From a virus: a stretch of 50,715 nucleotides of DNA. A model generated the notes under the pieces. It searched no databases. It was not told the origin of the DNA and saw only the letters and a program-made list of their open reading frames with translations. Every line of letters begins with the position of its first letter. The stretch's first letter is position 1. The stretch is from positions 1 through 50,715 of the IMG/VR virus record IMGVR_UViG_3300043570_000972, one strand, 5' to 3'. The translations under genes and the position numbers were made by a program. Below, piece after piece: positions 4,044 to 23,166 of the stretch.

Positions 4044-4745
4044 ATGAATGTATATTGGTTTGGTCGCCATACCGACAAAGATTTAGGATATATATCAGAC
4101 TTACTTGAAGATTCTGGGTTTTATGGATGGCTTCTACCTTACGCCGTGGGAGTTCCAGATCCGTTTACTAGAATAGCGAGATCTCTTAAAACAAATCAAA
4201 AGTTAAAGTATCTGGTTGCAGTTCGGCCATATACTATTTCTCCTCAGTATCTATTGGCAATTTCAAAATCATTAGACCTGATACAAGAAGACAGGGTTAG
4301 AATTAATTTTGTTCCTGGTTTAACTGATGGGGAAGAGTCTTTTGGAGGAGTCTTTTCAGATGTTAATGATTCCACATCCTTTGAGGATAGAAAAAAGTTT
4401 TTTTGTTCCTACCTTGAAAAGTTTAAAGACTGGGATGTAAAAAAGCCCTATACATATGTTTCTGGAATGAAAGATAGCATTTGCCCAAATATGGACAGTC
4501 TTGCAGATGCAAATATTGTTAATTATGGCAGACTGGTAAGTGGTACGCTTGATACTTCAGATAAAACAAAGATATTATTTTTTATTGTTCGTGACATTGA
4601 ATCATTTAGAACAATAATTAAACATATAAAAGAAAATGGATATAATAATATTATGATTCATGTAAACGGAGATGAACTTTTTGATTTAGCGCTAAAGGTA
4701 TTTGAAGAGGTAAAAAATATGAAATTAAACGAAAACCTTTTGTGA
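4044..4745 (+). CDS. Luciferase-like / alkanesulfonate monooxygenase-type protein
   Basis: 233 residues resembling the N-terminal half of SsuD-type flavin-dependent monooxygenases (bacterial luciferase superfamily). MNVYWFGRH opens the barrel and LEDSGFYGWLLPYA (21-34) follows. Residues 58-67 (VAVRPYTISP) and 84-92 (RVRINFVPG) match the family's 'LVA-RP---SP' and 'GR---N-V-G' blocks. These enzymes use reduced flavin and O2 to oxidise a substrate such as an alkanesulfonate. Family members are usually 330-380 residues; this one is shorter, so part of the barrel or an insertion is missing. It has a leaderless-type -10 (TATAAT, six bases before ATG) and is followed 13 nt later by a 2OG-Fe(II) oxygenase. 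Substrate unknown. Confidence 0.7.
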   Translation: MNVYWFGRHTDKDLGYISDLLEDSGFYGWLLPYAVGVPDPFTRIARSLKTNQKLKYLVAVRPYTISPQYLLAISKSLDLIQEDRVRINFVPGLTDGEESFGGVFSDVNDSTSFEDRKKFFCSYLEKFKDWDVKKPYTYVSGMKDSICPNMDSLADANIVNYGRLVSGTLDTSDKTKILFFIVRDIESFRTIIKHIKENGYNNIMIHVNGDELFDLALKVFEEVKNMKLNENLL

Positions 4746-4758
4746 TATAATTATAAAT

Positions 4759-5445
4759 ATGAAAGAACTTATCGAAAGCCAAAAAGTGTACTTAGACAAA
4801 GATCTTTGGTACATACCTAATTTTTTAACTGAAGAAGAGTCCGCCGAATTAAGGAAACATTGCGATGAGCCTAATGGCTGGTATATAACCTCTCGATCAC
4901 CTTCAATAAGAAACAAATTTATTGGTATAAAACACGATATTCATCCACAAGGAACCGTGTGTCCTACAAGAGGAATCGATCTAAGTCTAAGTGCAGTATT
5001 CCCAACAGATAAAGATGAACAGCACAAAGACCCCATATTTTGGCAAGATGGTGGTCTATTAGATAGACTCTCAATGGCTTTGCCAGATCATTTATTAAAA
5101 AACACAACCCTTCAATCTTTTTGGCCATTTAAAGAAGGGGTTGATAAGTATGGTGCATTTGAGTGGCATCATGAAAAAGGGAACCCAGGGCAAATAGATG
5201 ATGGACTAACAGGGGCGTGGTCTTTATATTTAAATAATGATTTTGTTGGAGGAGAATTGCTATTTAAATATAAGCCAGACATCATTATTAAGCCAGAACC
5301 TGGAATGCTTGTCAATATACCAATAACAAAAGAATTTACTCATAAAGTTACCCCTGTAACTTCTGGCATAAGACATACACTTTATGGCATTTGTTATGAT
5401 AGTTTTGATAGTGATCGGACTATCTCTAGCGGAGACAACTGCTAA
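4759..5445 (+). CDS. 2-oxoglutarate/Fe(II)-dependent oxygenase
   Basis: 228 residues with the double-stranded beta-helix oxygenase pattern. The iron ligands are H137 or H138 with E139 (FEWHHEKG) and H195 (EFTHKV), and R205 (GIRHTLYG) can bind 2-oxoglutarate. LNNDFVGGELLFK (158-170) matches the prolyl-hydroxylase-like 'F-GGEL' strand. Such enzymes hydroxylate proteins, nucleobases or small molecules and are common in large phages. A -10 box (TATAAT, seven bases before ATG) suggests its own leaderless transcript, although the luciferase-like gene ends only 13 nt upstream. The substrate is not evident. Confidence 0.8.
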   Translation: MKELIESQKVYLDKDLWYIPNFLTEEESAELRKHCDEPNGWYITSRSPSIRNKFIGIKHDIHPQGTVCPTRGIDLSLSAVFPTDKDEQHKDPIFWQDGGLLDRLSMALPDHLLKNTTLQSFWPFKEGVDKYGAFEWHHEKGNPGQIDDGLTGAWSLYLNNDFVGGELLFKYKPDIIIKPEPGMLVNIPITKEFTHKVTPVTSGIRHTLYGICYDSFDSDRTISSGDNC

Positions 5446-6562: not shown

Positions 6563-7252
6563 TTATTTTTCAAACTGAGATGGCTCACTAAACATATCCT
6601 TTAAAATATATTCATAAACTTCTGGAAATGATTCATCACCTGTAGACAAATATTCAAAATCCATAGTATTTAGATCTGGACTTTTTGTCCATTTTCTGGT
6701 TGCCATTCTATGAAATTTTACATCATCTACCTCTGTTCCACCAATATCAAACAAGTTTCCATACATTGTTCTGATTGAAACTTTTGATTGAATAACTGTA
6801 GATAGTTTTTGTTTATTTAATTCAATGGGCACATGAATTGCATAATCAAGCGGGTTTTCAATTCCAGCATCTTTTAAAATATTATTTGTATTAATAAGTA
6901 ATGAAGTATAATAAGAACTTTTTGCATTGTCTGTAAATATTTCTACCTTTTTTTGAAAACTTCCACCGTGATATGTGTTGATCTTATTTATTGGCTTGAT
7001 GATATAGAAGTCATCATTCATCAGTACAAAATCTTCTGGTATCCTTTTGCAATTAACAATAGTGTTTAAACTGTTTACCACATTTTCATATTTGTCTTGG
7101 CTTTGATCAGATTTTATATAATTTCCAACATACCAAGAAGGCTTTCCTCCAACAATCCAGATATTAGGATTATCTGTGTTTTTTACAACTGATCTTATTG
7201 AGTACCTTAACTCTTCATTGCTTCCAGGCCTACACAAATATACAAAGTTCAT
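6563..7252 (-). CDS. Stealth-like sugar-phosphate transferase
   Basis: 229 residues. FVLMNDDFYI (75-84) is the conserved-region-2 signature of Stealth proteins (F-Y-NDD-F), and HVPIEL (140-145) fits the downstream conserved His block. N-terminal YSIRSVVKN / IWIVGGKP resembles their opening Rossmann-like strand. Stealth enzymes transfer hexose-1-phosphates during capsule or teichoic-type polymer synthesis; this copy is shorter than bacterial members. It is the only - strand gene between 3421 and 8939, and has its own TATAAT six bases before the ATG. It could decorate the host surface or virion, for example to block superinfection (inference). Confidence 0.65.
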   Translation of the reverse strand: MNFVYLCRPGSNEELRYSIRSVVKNTDNPNIWIVGGKPSWYVGNYIKSDQSQDKYENVVNSLNTIVNCKRIPEDFVLMNDDFYIIKPINKINTYHGGSFQKKVEIFTDNAKSSYYTSLLINTNNILKDAGIENPLDYAIHVPIELNKQKLSTVIQSKVSIRTMYGNLFDIGGTEVDDVKFHRMATRKWTKSPDLNTMDFEYLSTGDESFPEVYEYILKDMFSEPSQFEK

Positions 7253-9804: not shown

Positions 9805-10839
9805 TTAATTTCCAGAACTTATCTCAGATATTTTTTCTCTAGCAAGGATTAGTGCAGGACCAGACAGTGGTGCATATCCTAGCCTAACTGCATCCTTTGT
9901 ACAATTTGCTATTGAAAAGGATAGGAACTCTTTAACTGCAGTATTTTTAGGAGTTTTTTCTTTAAAGGCTATGATATAACTAAAGGCAGATAGGTTATAT
10001 GCTAATGGGTTTGGGTTATTATAATTAGCATTAATAATCCCGTTATCTCCCCGCTGGAAATTACTAAGAAATTGAGATGCTGACTTTGCGCTTGGTTTTA
10101 TAAATTTCCCTGCTGAGTTTTCTATCAAAGCAACCTTTAAACCAGACGCATAAGATAATTCTGCGTATGTTATTACACCATTCATCTGTCTTGTAAGCAT
10201 TACAACACCGTGAGATCCTGATCCTGCTTGTGCTGTTATTGGAATTGTTCCTGGGAATGCAGCCTTAAAATCTTTATTTCCTGGCTTTTTCCAAATATTA
10301 GGATTCACCGCATTAAAATACTCAGTAAATATTTGAGAGGTTCCTGACCCATCTGCTCTAAATGCAATTTTTAATGGTGTAGATGGAATCTTTGGCTTTA
10401 TGTTTTTGATAGTATTGTCTTTAACTATTTCTTTATGGTTCCATTTTGTTATCTGTCCCGCAAAAATTTTAGCAAGTGTAGGCTTACTGAGTTGTATTGG
10501 CTTATTGTATCCATCAAGACGGTACATTATTGCAATTGGGCCAGCAATGAATGGCACATAAACATATCCCTCTGGTTGTTGCTCACCTGAAGCAAATGGA
10601 GTATCACTACCAGCAAAATTTATTATTTTATTGGACAGTTGGTTTCTTCCTGCCCCAGATCCAAGTGATGAATATGTTACTGTATTTCCTGTTGATTTTG
10701 CATAAGTGATACGACATGCGTCAAGGTAGTTTGCTATAAAGGAAGATCCACTACCAGTAATTTGATCTGAAGCGGATGCTGATGGAATAAAAATAAATGA
10801 CGCAGCGAGTGCTGCGATGAGCGATAGTTTAAGTTTCAT
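9805..10839 (-). CDS. pstS: Phosphate ABC-transporter substrate-binding protein PstS
   Basis: 344 residues. A Sec signal peptide (MKLKLSLIAALAASFIFIPS, cleavage about ASA-SD) is followed by the PstS pattern: ITGSGSSFIANYLDACRITY, the NFAGSDTPF phosphate-loop segment, AFRADGSGTSQIFTEYF and AQAGSGSHGV. It binds inorganic phosphate outside the membrane and delivers it to PstCAB, here presumably the host's. No lipobox Cys is visible, unusual for a Gram-positive host. No other pst gene is present, as in cyanophage pstS auxiliary genes. TATACT lies six bases before the ATG; no clear -35 or Pho box was found. Confidence 0.9.
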   Translation of the reverse strand: MKLKLSLIAALAASFIFIPSASASDQITGSGSSFIANYLDACRITYAKSTGNTVTYSSLGSGAGRNQLSNKIINFAGSDTPFASGEQQPEGYVYVPFIAGPIAIMYRLDGYNKPIQLSKPTLAKIFAGQITKWNHKEIVKDNTIKNIKPKIPSTPLKIAFRADGSGTSQIFTEYFNAVNPNIWKKPGNKDFKAAFPGTIPITAQAGSGSHGVVMLTRQMNGVITYAELSYASGLKVALIENSAGKFIKPSAKSASQFLSNFQRGDNGIINANYNNPNPLAYNLSAFSYIIAFKEKTPKNTAVKEFLSFSIANCTKDAVRLGYAPLSGPALILAREKISEISSGN

Positions 10840-16581: not shown

Positions 16582-16781
16582 TATTTAACGCCCTTTCCAA
16601 ATTTAGCCCAGACTCTTTCGTGTAGGAAATATCCAAGTGCTTCCCAGCCTATGTAAATGAGAGCACCAAGACTTGCGTACTCCCACTCACCAGTAAACAA
16701 ATAGATTACCCCAGCAACGCCAACAAGGTGAAAGGTTTCCCAACTTGCTGTTTTTAATAGTGTTCTTTTAGTTGATTCCAT
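16581..16781 (-). CDS. DUF2061 membrane protein (copy 2)
   Basis: 66 residues: STKRTLLKTASWETFHLVGV, a second helix EYASLGALIYIGWEALGYFL and the HERVWAKFG ending. It is clearly related to the copy at 15086-15289 but diverged, with Glu and His inside the helices. One base separates it from the endolysin, so it could contribute to lysis or membrane remodelling. Confidence 0.8.
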   Translation of the reverse strand: MESTKRTLLKTASWETFHLVGVAGVIYLFTGEWEYASLGALIYIGWEALGYFLHERVWAKFGKGVK

Positions 16782-17458
16782 TACTGTTCAACTCTTAGCG
16801 CTTTGCTTCCACCGCCACCAGAAGACTTCTTTGCAGTGATAGCAGTTGGCGCTGGCTTCTTTGGCTTTGCATCCAACTGGATGTAATCAGAGCGATCATT
16901 AATATCAATATTTGAAGCAGATAACTTATTAAGTAATGGAGCATTTTCTTCTCCAGTATAAACTGGACGACCCCAACCAACTACTGCATTAATTAACTTC
17001 TTTTTGTTATTCTTAACATATGCACGAGTCTTTTCTACGCACATTCCGCCATTGCGCTGATCTCCCTTGGCAGTTCCTGAAGTATTTCCTTCAATAACTT
17101 GGATTGTTCCATCACCATTGTTCTTGATGCAAAGACCAACATGTGAAATACGATTTACACCATCATCTGGGAAATCAAAAAAGATCCAGTCTCCTGGTGT
17201 TGGCTCATCATTACGAGCATCTGCCCAACGCTTTTCTTTCTTAAACTGATCTGATGCTGCTACTGTTGATGCAGACTTAGGGAATGATTTTACTCCCGCA
17301 GTAAATGCACACCACGAAACGAACGATTGGCACCAAGGTTGAAAGTTAACCTTCATCCATGCACCGTACTTTGTTTCGTTATCTTTAGGGCCTTCAATTG
17401 TTCCCAATTCTTTCTTTGCAACCTCAATGATTGCTTCTACTGAACCTTTTGCTGCCAT
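16781..17458 (-). CDS. CHAP-domain endolysin
   Basis: 225 residues. An amidase/endopeptidase CHAP domain fills about 8-165: AKKELGTIEGP, WCQSFVSWC with catalytic C43, ISHVGLC with H106 and VIEGNTSG (E123, N125). The C-terminal 60 residues are a low-complexity linker ending KKSSGGGGSKALRVEQ, where a wall-binding domain would normally sit. It cleaves peptidoglycan peptides at lysis. A strong AAGGAGG ribosome site and a TATAAT lie upstream, just past tRNA-Asn. Confidence 0.85.
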   Translation of the reverse strand: MAAKGSVEAIIEVAKKELGTIEGPKDNETKYGAWMKVNFQPWCQSFVSWCAFTAGVKSFPKSASTVAASDQFKKEKRWADARNDEPTPGDWIFFDFPDDGVNRISHVGLCIKNNGDGTIQVIEGNTSGTAKGDQRNGGMCVEKTRAYVKNNKKKLINAVVGWGRPVYTGEENAPLLNKLSASNIDINDRSDYIQLDAKPKKPAPTAITAKKSSGGGGSKALRVEQ

Positions 17459-17607: not shown

Positions 17608-18561
17608 TTAATTTCTGCTATATGTGCCCCTGTTTGCTGATTGAAGTTTATTATTAACTCTAATCATTTGGCTAAGAGATACTTTTTTAAGAGAGTTTAG
17701 ATACTCTTGAAAAGTTTTATATGTATTATTTTTAACATATGATGACGATGCAACCACAGTTGCTGTTGAAGTTCCATAGATATCTGTTGCAGAACCGTCG
17801 TACTTGGTAACTCTTACTTTTGTAAGGGCAACAAGATCAAGACCAGTTCCTGTATTTGTCGACATTTCAAGTAGATTTTCTGTTGCCAATGCTCCTACGC
17901 CAATGACTCCAGGGACACAGGCTGGAAAACCAACGAAATCATTTCTTTCATCATTTCCAGTAGCAATAAATGTAGGAATATTTGTTGCATTTAGTTGTGA
18001 CACTTGGTTTACAAATGGATTTAAAATTGATGGAGTTGTACATCCAGGATGAATAGATACTACTTTAACCCTATTGATCATCTCTGTACGAACACCAGAC
18101 TGGCTTATTGATACAGCATCAATACTATACTTTGATGCATTTTTATTTACCCAGTCTAATGCACTAAGAATGGTTGATCCATTTTCTGGCTGACCTGAGT
18201 TTCCTAAAGATGTAACATTATGCACTCTAATAAAAACAATCTTAATATTTGGATTAGTTACAAGTGCTGCCTTTACCATTGCATCTCCGTGGTATGTTCC
18301 AGAGTTTATATTTGTTGGCCATGGTGCACTTGCTGCTCCCTTGCCCTCCATAAATAGTTCTCCGTTAGGGCAAGACATATTTTCTTTTGGATTTGTTGAC
18401 TTTACTGTAGTAAAACAAACCTCGTGAATAATTGAATTAAATTTTGCTGAGTTAATTGCAGAATCAATAATCGCTAAAACTTTTTGATCTTCTGCTTGTG
18501 CTGGCTGTGTTACTGTGATTAGTAGTACTGCTGATAGTATTGCTAGTAGTGCTTTTTTCAT
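17608..18561 (-). CDS. Secreted subtilisin-like serine protease
   Basis: 317 residues from ATG 18561 (AACAGAAAGAG ribosome site); this start gives a clean Sec signal peptide (MKKALLAILSAVLLITVTQP, cleavage near AQA-ED). The S8 catalytic triad is visible: D33 (AIIDSAI), H91 (GTYHGDAM), S265 (YGTSTATVV), with oxyanion N203 (IATGNDE). No propeptide domain is evident, and the C-terminus is short. A secreted protease in a phage genome is unusual; it may trim host surface proteins or other phage exoproteins coded nearby. Confidence 0.85.
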   Translation of the reverse strand: MKKALLAILSAVLLITVTQPAQAEDQKVLAIIDSAINSAKFNSIIHEVCFTTVKSTNPKENMSCPNGELFMEGKGAASAPWPTNINSGTYHGDAMVKAALVTNPNIKIVFIRVHNVTSLGNSGQPENGSTILSALDWVNKNASKYSIDAVSISQSGVRTEMINRVKVVSIHPGCTTPSILNPFVNQVSQLNATNIPTFIATGNDERNDFVGFPACVPGVIGVGALATENLLEMSTNTGTGLDLVALTKVRVTKYDGSATDIYGTSTATVVASSSYVKNNTYKTFQEYLNSLKKVSLSQMIRVNNKLQSANRGTYSRN

Positions 18562-18581
18562 TTTATCTCTTTCTGTTATTG

Positions 18582-18800
18582 TTATTGTCTGATTTTTAAA
18601 ACTACTTGGCATGGGTCTCCGCCTTCTTCCCATTCTTTTTCTTCTTCTTCTGTCATAAAAGGATCCGACTCGTGTGTATTGCAGAATGGTTCTGATACCC
18701 ATCCTCTTTCAATACCGTTTTCAAGCCAGATCTCAAACTCGTCAAAGTCTGATTCCATATTCTGAATATCTTTTAATATCTCTTCAAATTCTTCGCTCAT
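18582..18800 (-). CDS. Acidic hypothetical protein
   Basis: 72 residues with strongly acidic N-terminal helices, then PFCNTHESDPFMTEEEEKEWE and GDPCQVVLKI. The CNTHD-P-T/E-EE...DPC pattern is one I recall as common in actinophage hypothetical proteins. It is driven by a perfect leaderless-type promoter at 18807-18835. Function unknown. Confidence 0.7.
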   Translation of the reverse strand: MSEEFEEILKDIQNMESDFDEFEIWLENGIERGWVSEPFCNTHESDPFMTEEEEKEWEEGGDPCQVVLKIRQ

Positions 18801-18806
18801 ATATAA

Positions 18807-18835
18807 AGTATATCCTTAAAGGCTAACGATGTCAA
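18807..18835 (-). promoter_or_regulatory. Leaderless-type promoter of the 18800 gene
   Basis: On the - strand TTGACA (18835-18830), 17-nt spacer, TATACT (18812-18807), six bases, ATG 18800. The whole -35 lies in the last codons of the HslV-like gene. Confidence 0.7.
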
Positions 18836-19340
18836 CTGGGCCCATACAAGATGGGTTAAATTTAATTGCTGCTGATACTGCTTGTTGCACTCTGTTCCTT
18901 GCATTTTTTTGCTTATCTGTTGCATATAAAACCCCATAGGCATATTCTGCACCAGAGCCCATAGCAAGATATGGAAGTGTATATTTAGATAAAGACATAT
19001 CTGCAGAACTGTGTTCATAGATTTCACCACGAACTGCAATGATCAAACCAAGGTCTCCATCTTTAGATGTATCAACCCAGAACTCATTATAAAATTCTTT
19101 TAGTTCTTTAATAAATCTGGTTTGCATAAACTTATCTGTATCTTTAATGTTGGGTGGTGTTGGTTTAAAATTATAACGGATTCTTTCTCCGTCCATTGAT
19201 CCAGCATATCCAATTAAGTATGGACCTATCTTCCAAACCTTTGGGGCATCAAGTGCTAAAATAGTTCCATCATCTGAAGCACCACGATCTCCAGCCATAT
19301 AAATTTTGTCGTCGTGTTTTACTACAGCAATACAGGTCAT
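18816..19340 (-). CDS. HslV / 20S-proteasome-type Ntn hydrolase
   Basis: 174 residues beginning MTCIAVVKHDDKIYMAGDR: removal of Met would expose the catalytic Thr of the proteasome-type N-terminal-nucleophile fold, with D18 in AGDRGAS and a Lys-containing VWKIGPYLIGYAGS strand following. LGLIIAVRGEIYEH and AMGSGAEYAYG fit the fold's later strands and helix. Self-compartmentalising proteases of this type degrade unfolded proteins with an ATPase partner; none is visible here, so it could use a host partner. Length matches HslV. Confidence 0.78.
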   Translation of the reverse strand: MTCIAVVKHDDKIYMAGDRGASDDGTILALDAPKVWKIGPYLIGYAGSMDGERIRYNFKPTPPNIKDTDKFMQTRFIKELKEFYNEFWVDTSKDGDLGLIIAVRGEIYEHSSADMSLSKYTLPYLAMGSGAEYAYGVLYATDKQKNARNRVQQAVSAAIKFNPSCMGPVDIVSL

Positions 19341-19345
19341 GATGA

Positions 19346-19401
19346 AGCCCTCTCCAGATAGGTGATACTCAAGTATACCATTACCCAGAGAGGGCTGTCA
19401 A
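19346..19401 (-). promoter_or_regulatory. Promoter inside a 9-bp inverted repeat
   Basis: TTGACA (19401-19396), 18-nt spacer, TATACT (19377-19372), then a short leader with GGAGAGGG before ATG 19340. A perfect inverted repeat AGCCCTCTC (19346-19354) / GAGAGGGCT (19388-19396) brackets the -10 box and includes the ribosome site. It could be an operator, or a hairpin terminating upstream transcription. Confidence 0.55.
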
Positions 19402-19704: not shown

Positions 19705-19887
19705 TTAGTCCTCCTCTCTATTTCTGATTGGACTAGTTAGTATCCATAATGCTGTTGTTGCCATGATTCCATAACCAACAACAGTTTTTGCACTACCGTC
19801 CAAAACAACCCAAGCAATAAACATACCAAGAAGGGTCCATGCTTGGTCTACCATATCTTTTAGGATATTCTTTATTATTCTTACCAT
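19705..19887 (-). CDS. Small membrane protein, holin/antiholin candidate
   Basis: 60 residues with two hydrophobic helices (WTLLGMFIAWVVL and VVGYGIMATTALWILT) between charged ends. Overlaps the PA14 gene by 7 nt and is followed 2 nt later by the holin-like gene, so the two are co-translated. Holin or antiholin by context only. Confidence 0.6.
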   Translation of the reverse strand: MVRIIKNILKDMVDQAWTLLGMFIAWVVLDGSAKTVVGYGIMATTALWILTSPIRNREED

Positions 19888-22004
19888 TTTCTACCTCCTC
19901 TTGAACCTGGTGAATTGGAGCCAGAAGCGCCACCTCCACCAGAATTTCCTCCTCCTGTGCTTCCACCTGTTGCAACGGCTGCTGCATTAATTGCTGCACC
20001 TGCTGCTACTACTGTTGCTATAACCATATCTGTTGCTTCTTCTCTTTCTCCTTCAGTCATATCTGCACCAATACTTCCAAGGGCTGCTAAGGCTGCACCT
20101 GGATCAGTAAAGACTGCTTCTAATAATGCCCCTGGATCTTGAACTAATTCTACATTTGCTGCAACCTCTGCTGTAATTATTAATACCTCGCCAGATTCAG
20201 ATGTTCTTAGTTCAATTGGTGTTTCTGCTGGAAGATCTGCATAAGATACTCCAGATGCCTGAACCTCTGCTGCTGAAATAGATTCTCCTGGCTTAAGGTT
20301 TTCTATCAATGCTGCCACTACAATTTCTGTTTGTTCTTCAGTTAATTCTTTTCCTTCTTTAGCCTCTGCAATTATTTCTTTTAATTCTTCTTCTTTTGCT
20401 TCTTCTTCAGCCAACGCCTCTTCTAATTCTTTTGCCTCTGCTTCTGCCTTTGCTTTTGCAATGGCCTCTTCTTCTGCTGCTATACGCTCAGCCTCTGCCT
20501 CTGCCTCTGCCGCAATTCTTTCTTCTTCCGCTATGCGCTCTGCTTCTATGCGTTCTGCCTCTGCTTTTGCCTCTGCTTCTGCTTTTTCTTCTGCTGCTTT
20601 AATTTCTGCTGCAACTCGATCTGCTTCTTCTTGGGCTTCTATCTCTGCTTTAATTCTTGCTGCTTCAATCTCCGCCTCTATGCGCTCTGCTTCTGCCTTT
20701 GCTTCTGCTTCTGCCCTAACTCTTTCTGCTTCTTGTGCTGCTTGAAGTGCTGCAATTCTTTCAGCCTCCGCTTGCGCTGCTGCTGCTTGTGCTGCAATTA
20801 ATGCTGCTGTCTCTGCCTGTATTCTTGCTGCTTCTGCTGCTTGCGCTGCTGCTTGCGCTGCAGTTGTTGCAGCAATTTGTGCTTCGGCTTGTGCTTGTGC
20901 TGCTGCTAAGGCTGCTGCTTGCGCTGCTGCTTGCGCTGCTTGTGTTGCTGCTAACGCTGCAACTTGTGCTGCAATTTCTGCTTCAGTTGGTCCAGTAGGT
21001 GTTGTTACAGTTGTTGTTTCAGGTGTAGGTGTTGTTACAGTTGTTGTTACAGTTGTTGTTTCAGGTGTAGGTGTTGGAGAAGGAGTCGGTGTTGGGGTTG
21101 GCGAAGGCGTAGGAGTGGGGGAAGGTTCAGGTGCAGGTGCTACATATGTAGAACCAGTAACAACATTTGAATTTGAAGAGTAAAGTGCAAATGTATCGTT
21201 ATCTGATCTAATATGAAATGACCAGACTGTTCCTGCTGGCATAAGTCCATTTAGCAAGGAATGATCAATTGTTATTGTTGTGTTTAAAGAATTTGGTCCG
21301 CCAACATTTCCAGTTGCAATTCCCCAACCATTGCACCCAGAACAATTAAAACTTATTGCATATCTCTCTGGCTGTGTGTTACCAGTATCTGGTGCTTGCC
21401 AAGATAGAACAGTTGATGTCTCATTGCTAGATATAGTTAAATTTCTTGGAGGTCCTATTGTTTTTACTACTGGTGCTGCTTGTGAAGTAAATGCTGATGC
21501 TGGAATGATCTGCATTGATCCAGATTGATCCCAGTTTAAAAATACGTTTGCTCCACCACCATTTTCATAGTACATTAATTCTATTGTTTTAGGGACTCCT
21601 GCTGTAAAGGCTATTGGGGCAGTTGTAGTTCCTCCACCACCTTTGTCTACCCAGTCACTTGCTACCAGTATGCCATCAACATACAGTTTTGTTCCGTCGT
21701 CTGCTGTTGCTAAAAATGATATGTCTTGAGTAGAATCGCTTCTAATTGACCCAGTAAATCGTACGATAACATCCTCTGAAGGGCCACCTAATACACTACC
21801 AGAACCCCACTGGAAGTCAATGTTAGGGACATTAGTCGTGACGACTGGAGAGGCTCCCTGGGGTATGTATGGAGAGCCATTTTGTCCTAGTACATTATAG
21901 ACTTGAGCAGTCAAGCCTTCTGCTGCGTGGGCTTTATCAATTATTAAAAGCAGGGGAAATAGAGCAAGCGATAGTACCAATGCTACTCTTAATAATTTTT
22001 TAAT
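19881..22004 (-). CDS. Secreted PA14-domain surface protein with long coiled coil
   Basis: About 707 residues. A signal peptide (KKLLRVALVLSLALFPLLL, cleavage near AHA-AE) leads into a PA14 carbohydrate-binding-type domain (about 30-180; FLATADDGTKLYVDG, LMYYENGGGANVFLNW), a fibronectin-III-like domain (about 185-290) and a Pro/Thr linker (PSPTPTPSPTPTP). A very long Ala/Glu helix (about 345-560), a small domain and a Gly-rich tail complete it. The frame has no ATG before the signal peptide. ATT 22004, right after GAGGGGGAAGAGGA, is the best start; TTG 21980 would delete the basic n-region. Likely a host-surface or virion adhesin. Confidence 0.75.
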   Translation of the reverse strand: MKKLLRVALVLSLALFPLLLIIDKAHAAEGLTAQVYNVLGQNGSPYIPQGASPVVTTNVPNIDFQWGSGSVLGGPSEDVIVRFTGSIRSDSTQDISFLATADDGTKLYVDGILVASDWVDKGGGGTTTAPIAFTAGVPKTIELMYYENGGGANVFLNWDQSGSMQIIPASAFTSQAAPVVKTIGPPRNLTISSNETSTVLSWQAPDTGNTQPERYAISFNCSGCNGWGIATGNVGGPNSLNTTITIDHSLLNGLMPAGTVWSFHIRSDNDTFALYSSNSNVVTGSTYVAPAPEPSPTPTPSPTPTPTPSPTPTPETTTVTTTVTTPTPETTTVTTPTGPTEAEIAAQVAALAATQAAQAAAQAAALAAAQAQAEAQIAATTAAQAAAQAAEAARIQAETAALIAAQAAAAQAEAERIAALQAAQEAERVRAEAEAKAEAERIEAEIEAARIKAEIEAQEEADRVAAEIKAAEEKAEAEAKAEAERIEAERIAEEERIAAEAEAEAERIAAEEEAIAKAKAEAEAKELEEALAEEEAKEEELKEIIAEAKEGKELTEEQTEIVVAALIENLKPGESISAAEVQASGVSYADLPAETPIELRTSESGEVLIITAEVAANVELVQDPGALLEAVFTDPGAALAALGSIGADMTEGEREEATDMVIATVVAAGAAINAAAVATGGSTGGGNSGGGGASGSNSPGSRGGRKW

Positions 22005-22110: not shown

Positions 22111-23166
22111 TTACTTCTTTAGAGCAACCTTAGCCTTTGGATTCTTTGCATTCCATTTTGCAGCCAACTTGTTATAGTCAGCCTTTGCTTTTGCTGCTGC
22201 TGCATCTGAAGCAGTCTTTGCATCTGCAAGTGCCTTATCTGAAGCAACCTTGTCTGCTGCACGACCAGCCTTTTCTGTTGCAAGTAAGTTAGATGCTGCC
22301 TGTGCATCAAGTGCACGACCAGCCTTCTCTGCTGCAAGTTGTGCAGTTAGTGTTGCGATTGTTCCATTAAGGTCTGAAACAACGAATGACGCTGTTGCTG
22401 CCTTAGTTGGTGCTGGAAGACCAGCAACTGTTGCTGCTGATGCAACACCAGTAACGACAACCTGAATTGTTCCTGCTACTGCTGTAGCAAGTGCTGCAGT
22501 CTTTGATCCAACTACTAGAGTTGAGTCTGCTGCTCCTTCTGCTGTTGTTGTAGTAACAAGAGTCTTTGTGATTGAACCATCAGCAAATGTGGATCCGATT
22601 ACTGTAGCAGTAATTGTCTCGCCTGTTGCAATTAAGTTTCCAAAAACATCTGTTGCTGAAACTGTGATTGTTGGAATTGTTCCAACTGCTGTTGCTGAAG
22701 GAACTGAAAGTGCAACATTAGATGCTGCTCCTGCTGTTCCCTTAATAAATACGATTGTTGAATATGAACCATTTGTAATGGTTACTGATCCAACTGCTGT
22801 CGTAGTTGTGTATGCATAAACTGTAACTGCTGCTCCTGCAGATGTTACTGAAAGAGTTGAAACTCCTGAAGCAACTGTCTTTGGTGCATCGGTTGTGTGT
22901 AGTGCTGTTACCAACTTGACTGTTGATGAAGCAGCAAAAGAAACGATTGTTCCTGTGTCTGCTGTTGCAGCAAGTGCTACAGATGTACCAGATGTGATCT
23001 GGTTTGCAGATGGTACTGCAACTGTTGCAGGTGCTGCGCTTGTTGTTGCGTTAGTAACTGTTGCAACTGTAACGGCCAGAGGTGCTGCCGAAGAAGGTGC
23101 TACAGAAAGTCCAACGATTGCTAGGGCTGCAGCAGTAGCAATTGAGATTTTCTTAAATGAATTCAT
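22111..23166 (-). CDS. Secreted Ala/Thr-rich Ig-like surface protein
   Basis: 351 residues. A signal peptide (MNSFKKISIATAAALAIVGL, cleavage near SSA-AP) is followed by about 220 residues of Val/Thr/Ala-rich beta strands with an Ig-like block (NVALSVPSATAVGTIPTITV, ATDVFGNLIATGETITATV). A helical C-terminus with the repeated AAEKAGRA / ATEKAGRA unit ends KAKVALKK. The composition is like S-layer or cell-surface proteins of small freshwater actinobacteria, suggesting capture from a host. Ribosome site AAAAGGAAT; a terminator follows. Confidence 0.7.
   Translation of the reverse strand: MNSFKKISIATAAALAIVGLSVAPSSAAPLAVTVATVTNATTSAAPATVAVPSANQITSGTSVALAATADTGTIVSFAASSTVKLVTALHTTDAPKTVASGVSTLSVTSAGAAVTVYAYTTTTAVGSVTITNGSYSTIVFIKGTAGAASNVALSVPSATAVGTIPTITVSATDVFGNLIATGETITATVIGSTFADGSITKTLVTTTTAEGAADSTLVVGSKTAALATAVAGTIQVVVTGVASAATVAGLPAPTKAATASFVVSDLNGTIATLTAQLAAEKAGRALDAQAASNLLATEKAGRAADKVASDKALADAKTASDAAAAKAKADYNKLAAKWNAKNPKAKVALKK

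Follow-up and report, generated by a model that had tools for sequence, protein, structure and literature searches.

The window, by which we mean the whole 50,715-base stretch of a virus record that was analysed and in which end repeats are absent, carries on its minus strand (18816..19340) a gene for a proteasome/HslV-like Ntn threonine peptidase of 174 amino acids with the mature catalytic triad Thr1-Asp17-Lys33. Profile comparisons and a predicted structure indicate that the product is an Ntn hydrolase of the HslV/proteasome-beta fold, and its sequence places it among the group I proteasome homologues, on the AAH side, as a separate sister lineage of AAH. This kind of protein has already been described; what is new is an AAH-side protein in a Stanwilliamsviridae-like phage. 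It belongs to a phage gene family that is recognised and uncharacterised, and that is found here to be very common and strongly conserved.

The peptidase gene and its product

The open reading frame that an earlier note on this DNA had described as an HslV/proteasome-like protease was recovered at exactly these coordinates and on the same strand, with an ATG start, and each of the MTCIAVV, AGDR and GSGAEYA blocks named in that note is present in the 174-amino-acid protein. Thr is located directly after Met1 and there is no propeptide of the PrcB type. Following removal of Met1, Thr1, Asp17 and Lys33 fall at their canonical numbering, which agrees with the exposed threonine and intact catalytic residues that had been claimed. 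Judged from its sequence, the peptidase is probably catalytically active.

Assignment to the proteasome-type Ntn hydrolases is the part of the earlier description that stood, whereas identity with HslV in the strict sense did not, as the curated HslV model (NCBIfam equivalog) gives 21.7 bits against a cut-off of 157.75. The corresponding PrcB model gives 15.5 bits against a cut-off of 191.9. The protein matches the Pfam Proteasome family PF00227 at 24.0 bits (cut-off 22.4). This evidence is weak because PF00227, when searched against all six frames of the window record, did not attain E 0.001, and the case therefore rests on the profile, fold and PHROG matches. The match to PHROG 1040 (‘peptidase HslV family’) covers residues 1-173 with E 2.6e-23, and all 56 of the 56 aligned relatives match this family as well. 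BPH is the top PDB match by plain phmmer (E 0.014), and rises to E 4e-4 as the closest solved sequence when the window-family profile is used. The gene is present as a single copy in each of nine records.

An AlphaFold2 model built from 56 aligned sequences (pLDDT 90.7, pTM 0.87) includes both helix pairs and has the beta-sandwich core with flanking helices that characterises the superfamily. The helices at residues 51-57 and 68-87 are both in the model, and the strands at 20-23, 26-29, 35-38 and 41-46 are linked by short stretches, with no long insertion of the connectase type. When the model was compared with solved structures (Foldseek, VIA-align 2), the best match was BPH (5ovt; Z 20.7, rmsd 2.3, 163 residues aligned), followed by HslV (6kr1; Z 19.9), and the Mycobacterium tuberculosis proteasome gave Z 18.6. 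The structural alignments begin at model residue 2, the prospective Thr1. Among predicted viral proteins, the model matches several from phages that bear the name HslV or proteasome subunit, as well as a protein of the isolated actinophage Gordonia phage Daredevil (E 1.4e-10, 22% identity).

Relationship to other proteasome homologues

In a tree of 48 rows, the window family, AAH-type proteins and phage proteins stand opposite HslV and PrcB with support 98/90, and 35 AAH-type and phage rows form their own branch that excludes the window family (91/100). These two splits are the reason for placing the window protein as a sister of AAH; sequences of the small cyanobacterial CPH group (Fuchs et al.) were outside the rows compared with the window family. 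HslV proper and PrcB were each rejected as identities, since in both cases the curated score is far under the cut-off and the tree branch is separate. We also rejected PPH (Fuchs et al.), which has about 140 residues and lacks helix H2, because the window protein has 174 residues and both helices.

The likeness to AAH is nevertheless extensive. Comparison of the window family with AAH-type proteins by hhalign gives a probability of 99.5 and E 4e-23 over 172 columns, which amounts to a full-length profile match, and the two share the Thr1-Asp17-Lys33 triad, a length of about 180 amino acids and the lack of a propeptide. However, the window protein is just 22-31% identical to AAH-type proteins and falls outside their clade. 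To retrieve cellular relatives, sequences from Streptomyces, Paraburkholderia, Rhizobium and a Moorella phage were aligned and used as the query; the relatives belong to Streptomyces, Actinoplanes, Frankia, Rhizobium, Azospirillum and, in some cases, Firmicutes. Fuchs, Alva and Lupas (2021, PMC8665760) give the same taxon distribution for AAH, a group I proteasome homologue that occurs in phages and, sporadically, in Streptomyces, Frankia, Rhizobium, Azospirillum and Firmicutes. Our AAH set was recognised by this distribution and is separate from those authors’ own file. In ten AAH-bearing genomes, the window protein matches one place each, and this place is the AAH-type gene rather than a PrcB or HslV gene; nine of the ten carry PrcB or HslV genes alongside, with G005 outside that check.

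Relatives in named phages (T5-like, Vibrio, Aeromonas, Psychrobacter and Moorella phages) belong to PHROG 1040 at 24-32% identity, and relatives are also present in Salmonella and Escherichia phages. PHROG 1040 proteins such as AGC_0103 of EPS7 and those of Vibrio, Aeromonas and Moorella phages share the PHROG, the MT(C/A/T)I start and the triad with the window protein, and differ in their low identity and in their phages and hosts. When the phiTY18 protein was used as the query for a scan, no matches were returned. The Moorella phage MTATph1 gene (L085:5001-5060) is annotated from a downstream start, and a TTG start gives MTCIA with the catalytic Thr. Aeromonas phage 2L372X (L084) has two adjacent genes annotated ‘peptidase HslV family’, the second of which spans the record start, and it is possible that this pair represents a two-subunit version.

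Conservation and selection

A scan of viral contigs yielded 545 stretches encoding relatives, from which the best 80 were taken as the detailed family set. Throughout these best 80 of 545, the length is 174 residues and there are no stop codons. Their dN/dS against the window sequence is 0.047 (77 non-identical at the DNA level), a value that is biased low because the subset consists of the 80 most similar relatives. Synonymous divergence within the same best 80 reaches about 1.0 while protein identity remains at least 94%. The 545 viral relatives, together with a dN/dS near 0.05 among the closest of them, indicate that a chance open reading frame is ruled out.

Loss of the catalytic triad, which the earlier note had named as grounds for abandoning its proposal, was checked by alignment, and Thr1, Asp17 and Lys33 are kept in 249 of 249 rows (81 rows of the window family, the other 168 being further proteins of phages and bacteria). 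Seven rows that were truncated, interrupted or spurious had been dropped before this count: L225, in which a contig end cuts the gene; L221, in which the match began inside the gene; a second, spurious ORF of L156; and L114-L117, with one in-frame stop apiece. Elsewhere the window family has its own signature of Arg18, Gly46 and Ser128 (mature numbering), while Ser, Ser and Cys predominate at these positions in AAH-type and other rows. Textbook proteasome beta subunits carry Asp166, and at this place the window protein has N-P-S-C (residues 162-165), which counts against the reading preferred below.

The four Rhizobium rows L114, L115, L116 and L117 (lusitanum, leucaenae, freirei) have a common in-frame stop after residue 38. 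The AAH-type gene in these four genomes therefore looks like a decaying copy that was inherited or spread together.

Promoter and leader of the peptidase gene

A near-consensus sigma-70-type promoter, TTGACA-N18-TATACT, is located upstream of the peptidase gene (19372..19401, minus strand), and 76 of 81 family members have TTGACA-N16-18-TATACT ahead of the gene, two of the 81 having less than 70 nucleotides of upstream sequence. The interval from the -35 box to the start codon contains an inverted repeat, or predicted RNA hairpin (19343..19400, minus strand), with a folding energy of -30.8 kcal/mol and a z score of -5.9, and 0 of 200 shuffles were as low. Its 5′ arm (19382-19396, minus) lies inside the promoter, and its 3′ arm (19346-19360, minus) contains the Shine-Dalgarno sequence GGAGAGGG (19348..19355, minus). 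This leader is the most stable of the 62 gene leaders listed for the window (median -7.3). A promoter match is present in 77 leaders of the family; 61 of these are at -18 kcal/mol or lower, and the remaining 16, which speak against the hairpin, retain the promoter and lack the strong stem.

Evidence from covariation for the stem is mixed as judged from the aligned sequences. Pairing is retained in 83.0% of cells, compared with at most 57.3% when the stem is slid, and there are 13 double-change cells where shuffling gives 4.3 on average (0 of 500 shuffles). However, 64 of 500 shuffles attain the observed covariation score and 383 of 500 attain the observed number of pair types, so that neither value is exceptional. 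The inverted repeat could alternatively be a DNA operator instead of an RNA hairpin.

The architecture suggests that the leader hairpin could control the timing of peptidase production. A transcript from the gene’s own promoter is expected to begin near position 19365, and would therefore be made without the 5′ arm, whereas a read-through RNA would hold both arms and hide the ribosome site in the predicted fold. A point against this is that in 50 of the own-promoter transcripts the ribosome site is at least half paired; in the window this pairing is weak (-3 kcal/mol). Just such an arrangement is described for T4 gene e (PMC3014915), where the promoter lies within or next to the 5′ arm and the hairpin masks the ribosome site in read-through RNA. 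The T4 case concerns another gene and another phage, and the arrangement predicted for the window has a sigma-70-type promoter.

A second near-consensus promoter (18807..18835, minus strand) lies over the 3′ end of the peptidase gene, ahead of the open reading frame for a 72-amino-acid protein. There are seven TTGACA-N16-18-TATAMT sites in the window versus 0.08 expected, and they are located at positions 2647, 3435, 7687, 11513, 18807, 19372 and 37046. The phage thus seems to employ host-type sigma-70 promoters at selected genes.

The phage and its host

The DnaE encoded in the window shares 55% identity with its counterpart in Streptomyces phage BillNye, and the terminase shares 54-55% with those of Gilson and Yaboi. 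The best 20 of 1,368 matching records for DnaE and the best 20 of 357 for the terminase are all Streptomyces phages. A gene order of helicase, primase, SSB, DnaE, RecA, exonuclease, RuvC and terminase is common to the window and Yaboi (Stanwilliamsviridae). By these sequence comparisons the window represents part of the genome of a Stanwilliamsviridae-like actinophage, and the actinobacterial context assumed in the earlier note is supported at the level of phage lineage. This kinship suggests that the virus most likely infects actinobacteria. The phage has a PstS-like phosphate-binding protein (9805-10839, minus strand) whose best match is in an actinobacterial genome, and because the identity is just 39% the host cannot be named.

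The window protein matched one of 396 sampled actinobacterial genomes, which is the Streptomyces centre itself, so no closer cellular source was found in this sample. Fuchs et al. (PMC8665760) found AAH to be most abundant in Actinobacteria, and reported that a search for actinobacterium-specific phages carrying AAH gave none. The lineage described here comes close to filling this gap, being a sister of AAH in a phage whose host is suggested by kinship. A search of the literature, as far as its text was accessible, yielded nothing on freshwater actinophages with this gene.

Possible function and alternative explanations

The family, predicted fold, triad, purifying selection, promoter motif and inverted repeat are directly supported by the analyses above. 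From them we infer an assembly, an independence from ATPases, a class of substrates and a timing, each of which is put forward conditionally. The reading that we prefer, with middling confidence, is that the protein would be a BPH-like, ATPase-independent, self-compartmentalising threonine peptidase of the proteasome-beta/HslV fold that is expressed on a fixed schedule. Host methionine aminopeptidase would remove Met1 to free Thr1, as others have shown for BPH. Subunits would then form a homomeric ring or double ring, as suggested by BPH, HslV and the single gene copy per record. Perhaps this ring needs no dedicated AAA+ unfoldase and acts on peptides, or on proteins that have already unfolded. 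Its role in the infected cell might be to clear or recycle host or phage proteins during takeover. The gene’s own host-type promoter would set expression, and presumably its timing: RNA reading through from upstream genes would fold the hairpin and hide the ribosome site, and own-promoter RNA would lack the 5′ arm, following the logic of T4 gene e.

BPH (betaproteobacterial proteasome homologue; PDB 5OVS, 5OVT, 5OVU) is the main precedent for this reading. According to its description (PMC5777263), BPH has its Met1 removed, reacts with epoxomicin and MG132, is inert on standard peptides and casein, and has no known ATPase or other AAA+ partner. Because BPH combines the same layout with no known ATPase and inertness on standard substrates, the best reading is a self-compartmentalising, ATPase-independent threonine hydrolase with narrow or special substrates, and the term ‘general peptidase’ may be wrong for the window protein. 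The two proteins differ in that their identity is about 20% and BPH is a bacterial gene. BPH also has a long acidic pore loop; in our model the region after helix 2 (88-97) seems short, at a pLDDT of just 67-78. A bolder version, which we regard as rather improbable, is a virus-owned, ATPase-independent mini-proteasome of its own actinophage lineage that assembles by itself, is expressed from an autonomous host-type promoter with the hairpin blocking its translation from read-through RNA, and dismantles specific host or defence proteins on schedule. Proteasome-like genes are widespread in phages, with 545 close relatives of the window gene alone, and we found no tested function for phage proteasome-like members in the open-access literature. 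Since this family is intact, strongly conserved and equipped with its own regulatory leader, it offers a good handle on how a ring might act without an unfoldase and how a phage might benefit.

The absence of an ATPase encoded by the phage itself, as the earlier note had claimed, was confirmed, in that no AAA_2 (HslU/Clp-type) domain was found in eight longer relatives and no PF00004 match above cut-off in nine records including the window (a G408 match, at 18.1 bits, is weak and below cut-off). ClpP is also absent from the four records searched, and each window ORF of at least 300 amino acids has another identity or no ATPase-like match. On these grounds an own unfoldase was rejected. The earlier note had suggested instead that the phage protein commandeers the host ATPase or replaces proteasome subunits, and for this we found no positive support. 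A phage ring that attaches to host Mpa/ARC, or co-assembles with PrcB, and so redirects proteasomal degradation would suit an actinophage lineage, and of 396 actinobacterial genomes in the sample, 157 have ARC/Mpa above the curated cut-off. However, this is also only 157 of the 396; the protein is far from PrcB in the tree and by model score, and BPH, the closest fold, has no known ATPase partner (PMC5777263). Furthermore, Mpa/ARC docks on PrcA alpha rings, and an alpha-type subunit is absent here. Family members also occur in phages of Salmonella, Escherichia and Vibrio, hosts that are not known to have Mpa, and the peptidase family therefore appears independent of Mpa. We consider such a takeover quite unlikely.

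Use of host HslU by an HslV-type ring can be weighed in the same manner. HslU activates HslV rings, HslV is among the best solved folds, and the window protein resembles HslV in fold (Z up to 19.9), length, exposed Thr1 and GSG motif. Nevertheless, HslU is above cut-off in just one of the 396 actinobacterial genomes, none of the eight relatives has AAA_2, no HslU is present here, and the low HslV score and separate branch distinguish the two proteins, leaving HslU dependence with hardly any probability. A phage capsid maturation protease is very improbable too. This idea draws on terL, which is found in 45 window-family loci, every one that reaches its expected place, and on the 33 of 109 non-redundant AAH-type loci (a raw count) in which terminase, portal or S78 protease genes are at most 3.5 kb away. 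It was rejected because five of nine records, the five longest, encode an S78-type head protease as a gene of its own, with 40-50% identity to the Yaboi protein; an S78 protease is close by in 14 of the 109 AAH-type loci, and the peptidase gene has its own host-type promoter. Finally, there is a small chance that the protein is a specific ligase or transpeptidase resembling connectase, or carries out other Thr1 amide-bond chemistry on one partner protein. The inertness of BPH on standard substrates (PMC5777263) and the strong conservation (dN/dS 0.047) would fit a specific partner, and connectase demonstrates that ligation is possible in this fold (PMC8665760). Against it, the model lacks the long connectase-type insertion, no partner protein was identified, and there is no PADLOC match, a result on which a defence or counter-defence family was likewise rejected.

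Neighbouring genes

Immediately downstream of the peptidase gene is an open reading frame for an acidic protein of 72 amino acids (18582..18800, minus strand), which is present in 78 relatives, that is, in all 78 that reach its expected place. It has no trusted family match in Pfam or PHROG, and its link to the peptidase is one of association only. An upstream 94-amino-acid protein is found in 61 relatives (73 reach its place) and matches PHROG ‘nuclease’ and, more weakly, ‘holin’. Between the terminase and the peptidase are a PA14 domain protein with long Ala/Glu-rich repeats (19881-21980, minus) and an Ala/Thr/Val-rich protein with a signal-peptide-like sequence (22111-23166, minus). Because these are present in just 12 of 80 relatives (54 reach the place) and 34 of 80 (51 reach the place), respectively, they appear to be fast evolving.

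Two genes downstream of the peptidase is a subtilase (PF00082, E 4.7e-6; 17608-18702, minus) with a probable signal peptide, so that two protease genes of different kinds lie side by side, and a CHAP endolysin (16781-17458) follows the subtilase. Terminase, portal and S78 are recurrent neighbours of AAH-type genes, and those of temperate phages (L110, L199, L250 and others) often adjoin one of them. Elsewhere in the window there are weak luciferase-like (4044-4745, plus), 2OG-oxygenase-like (4759-5445, plus) and Stealth-like (6563-7252, minus) matches.
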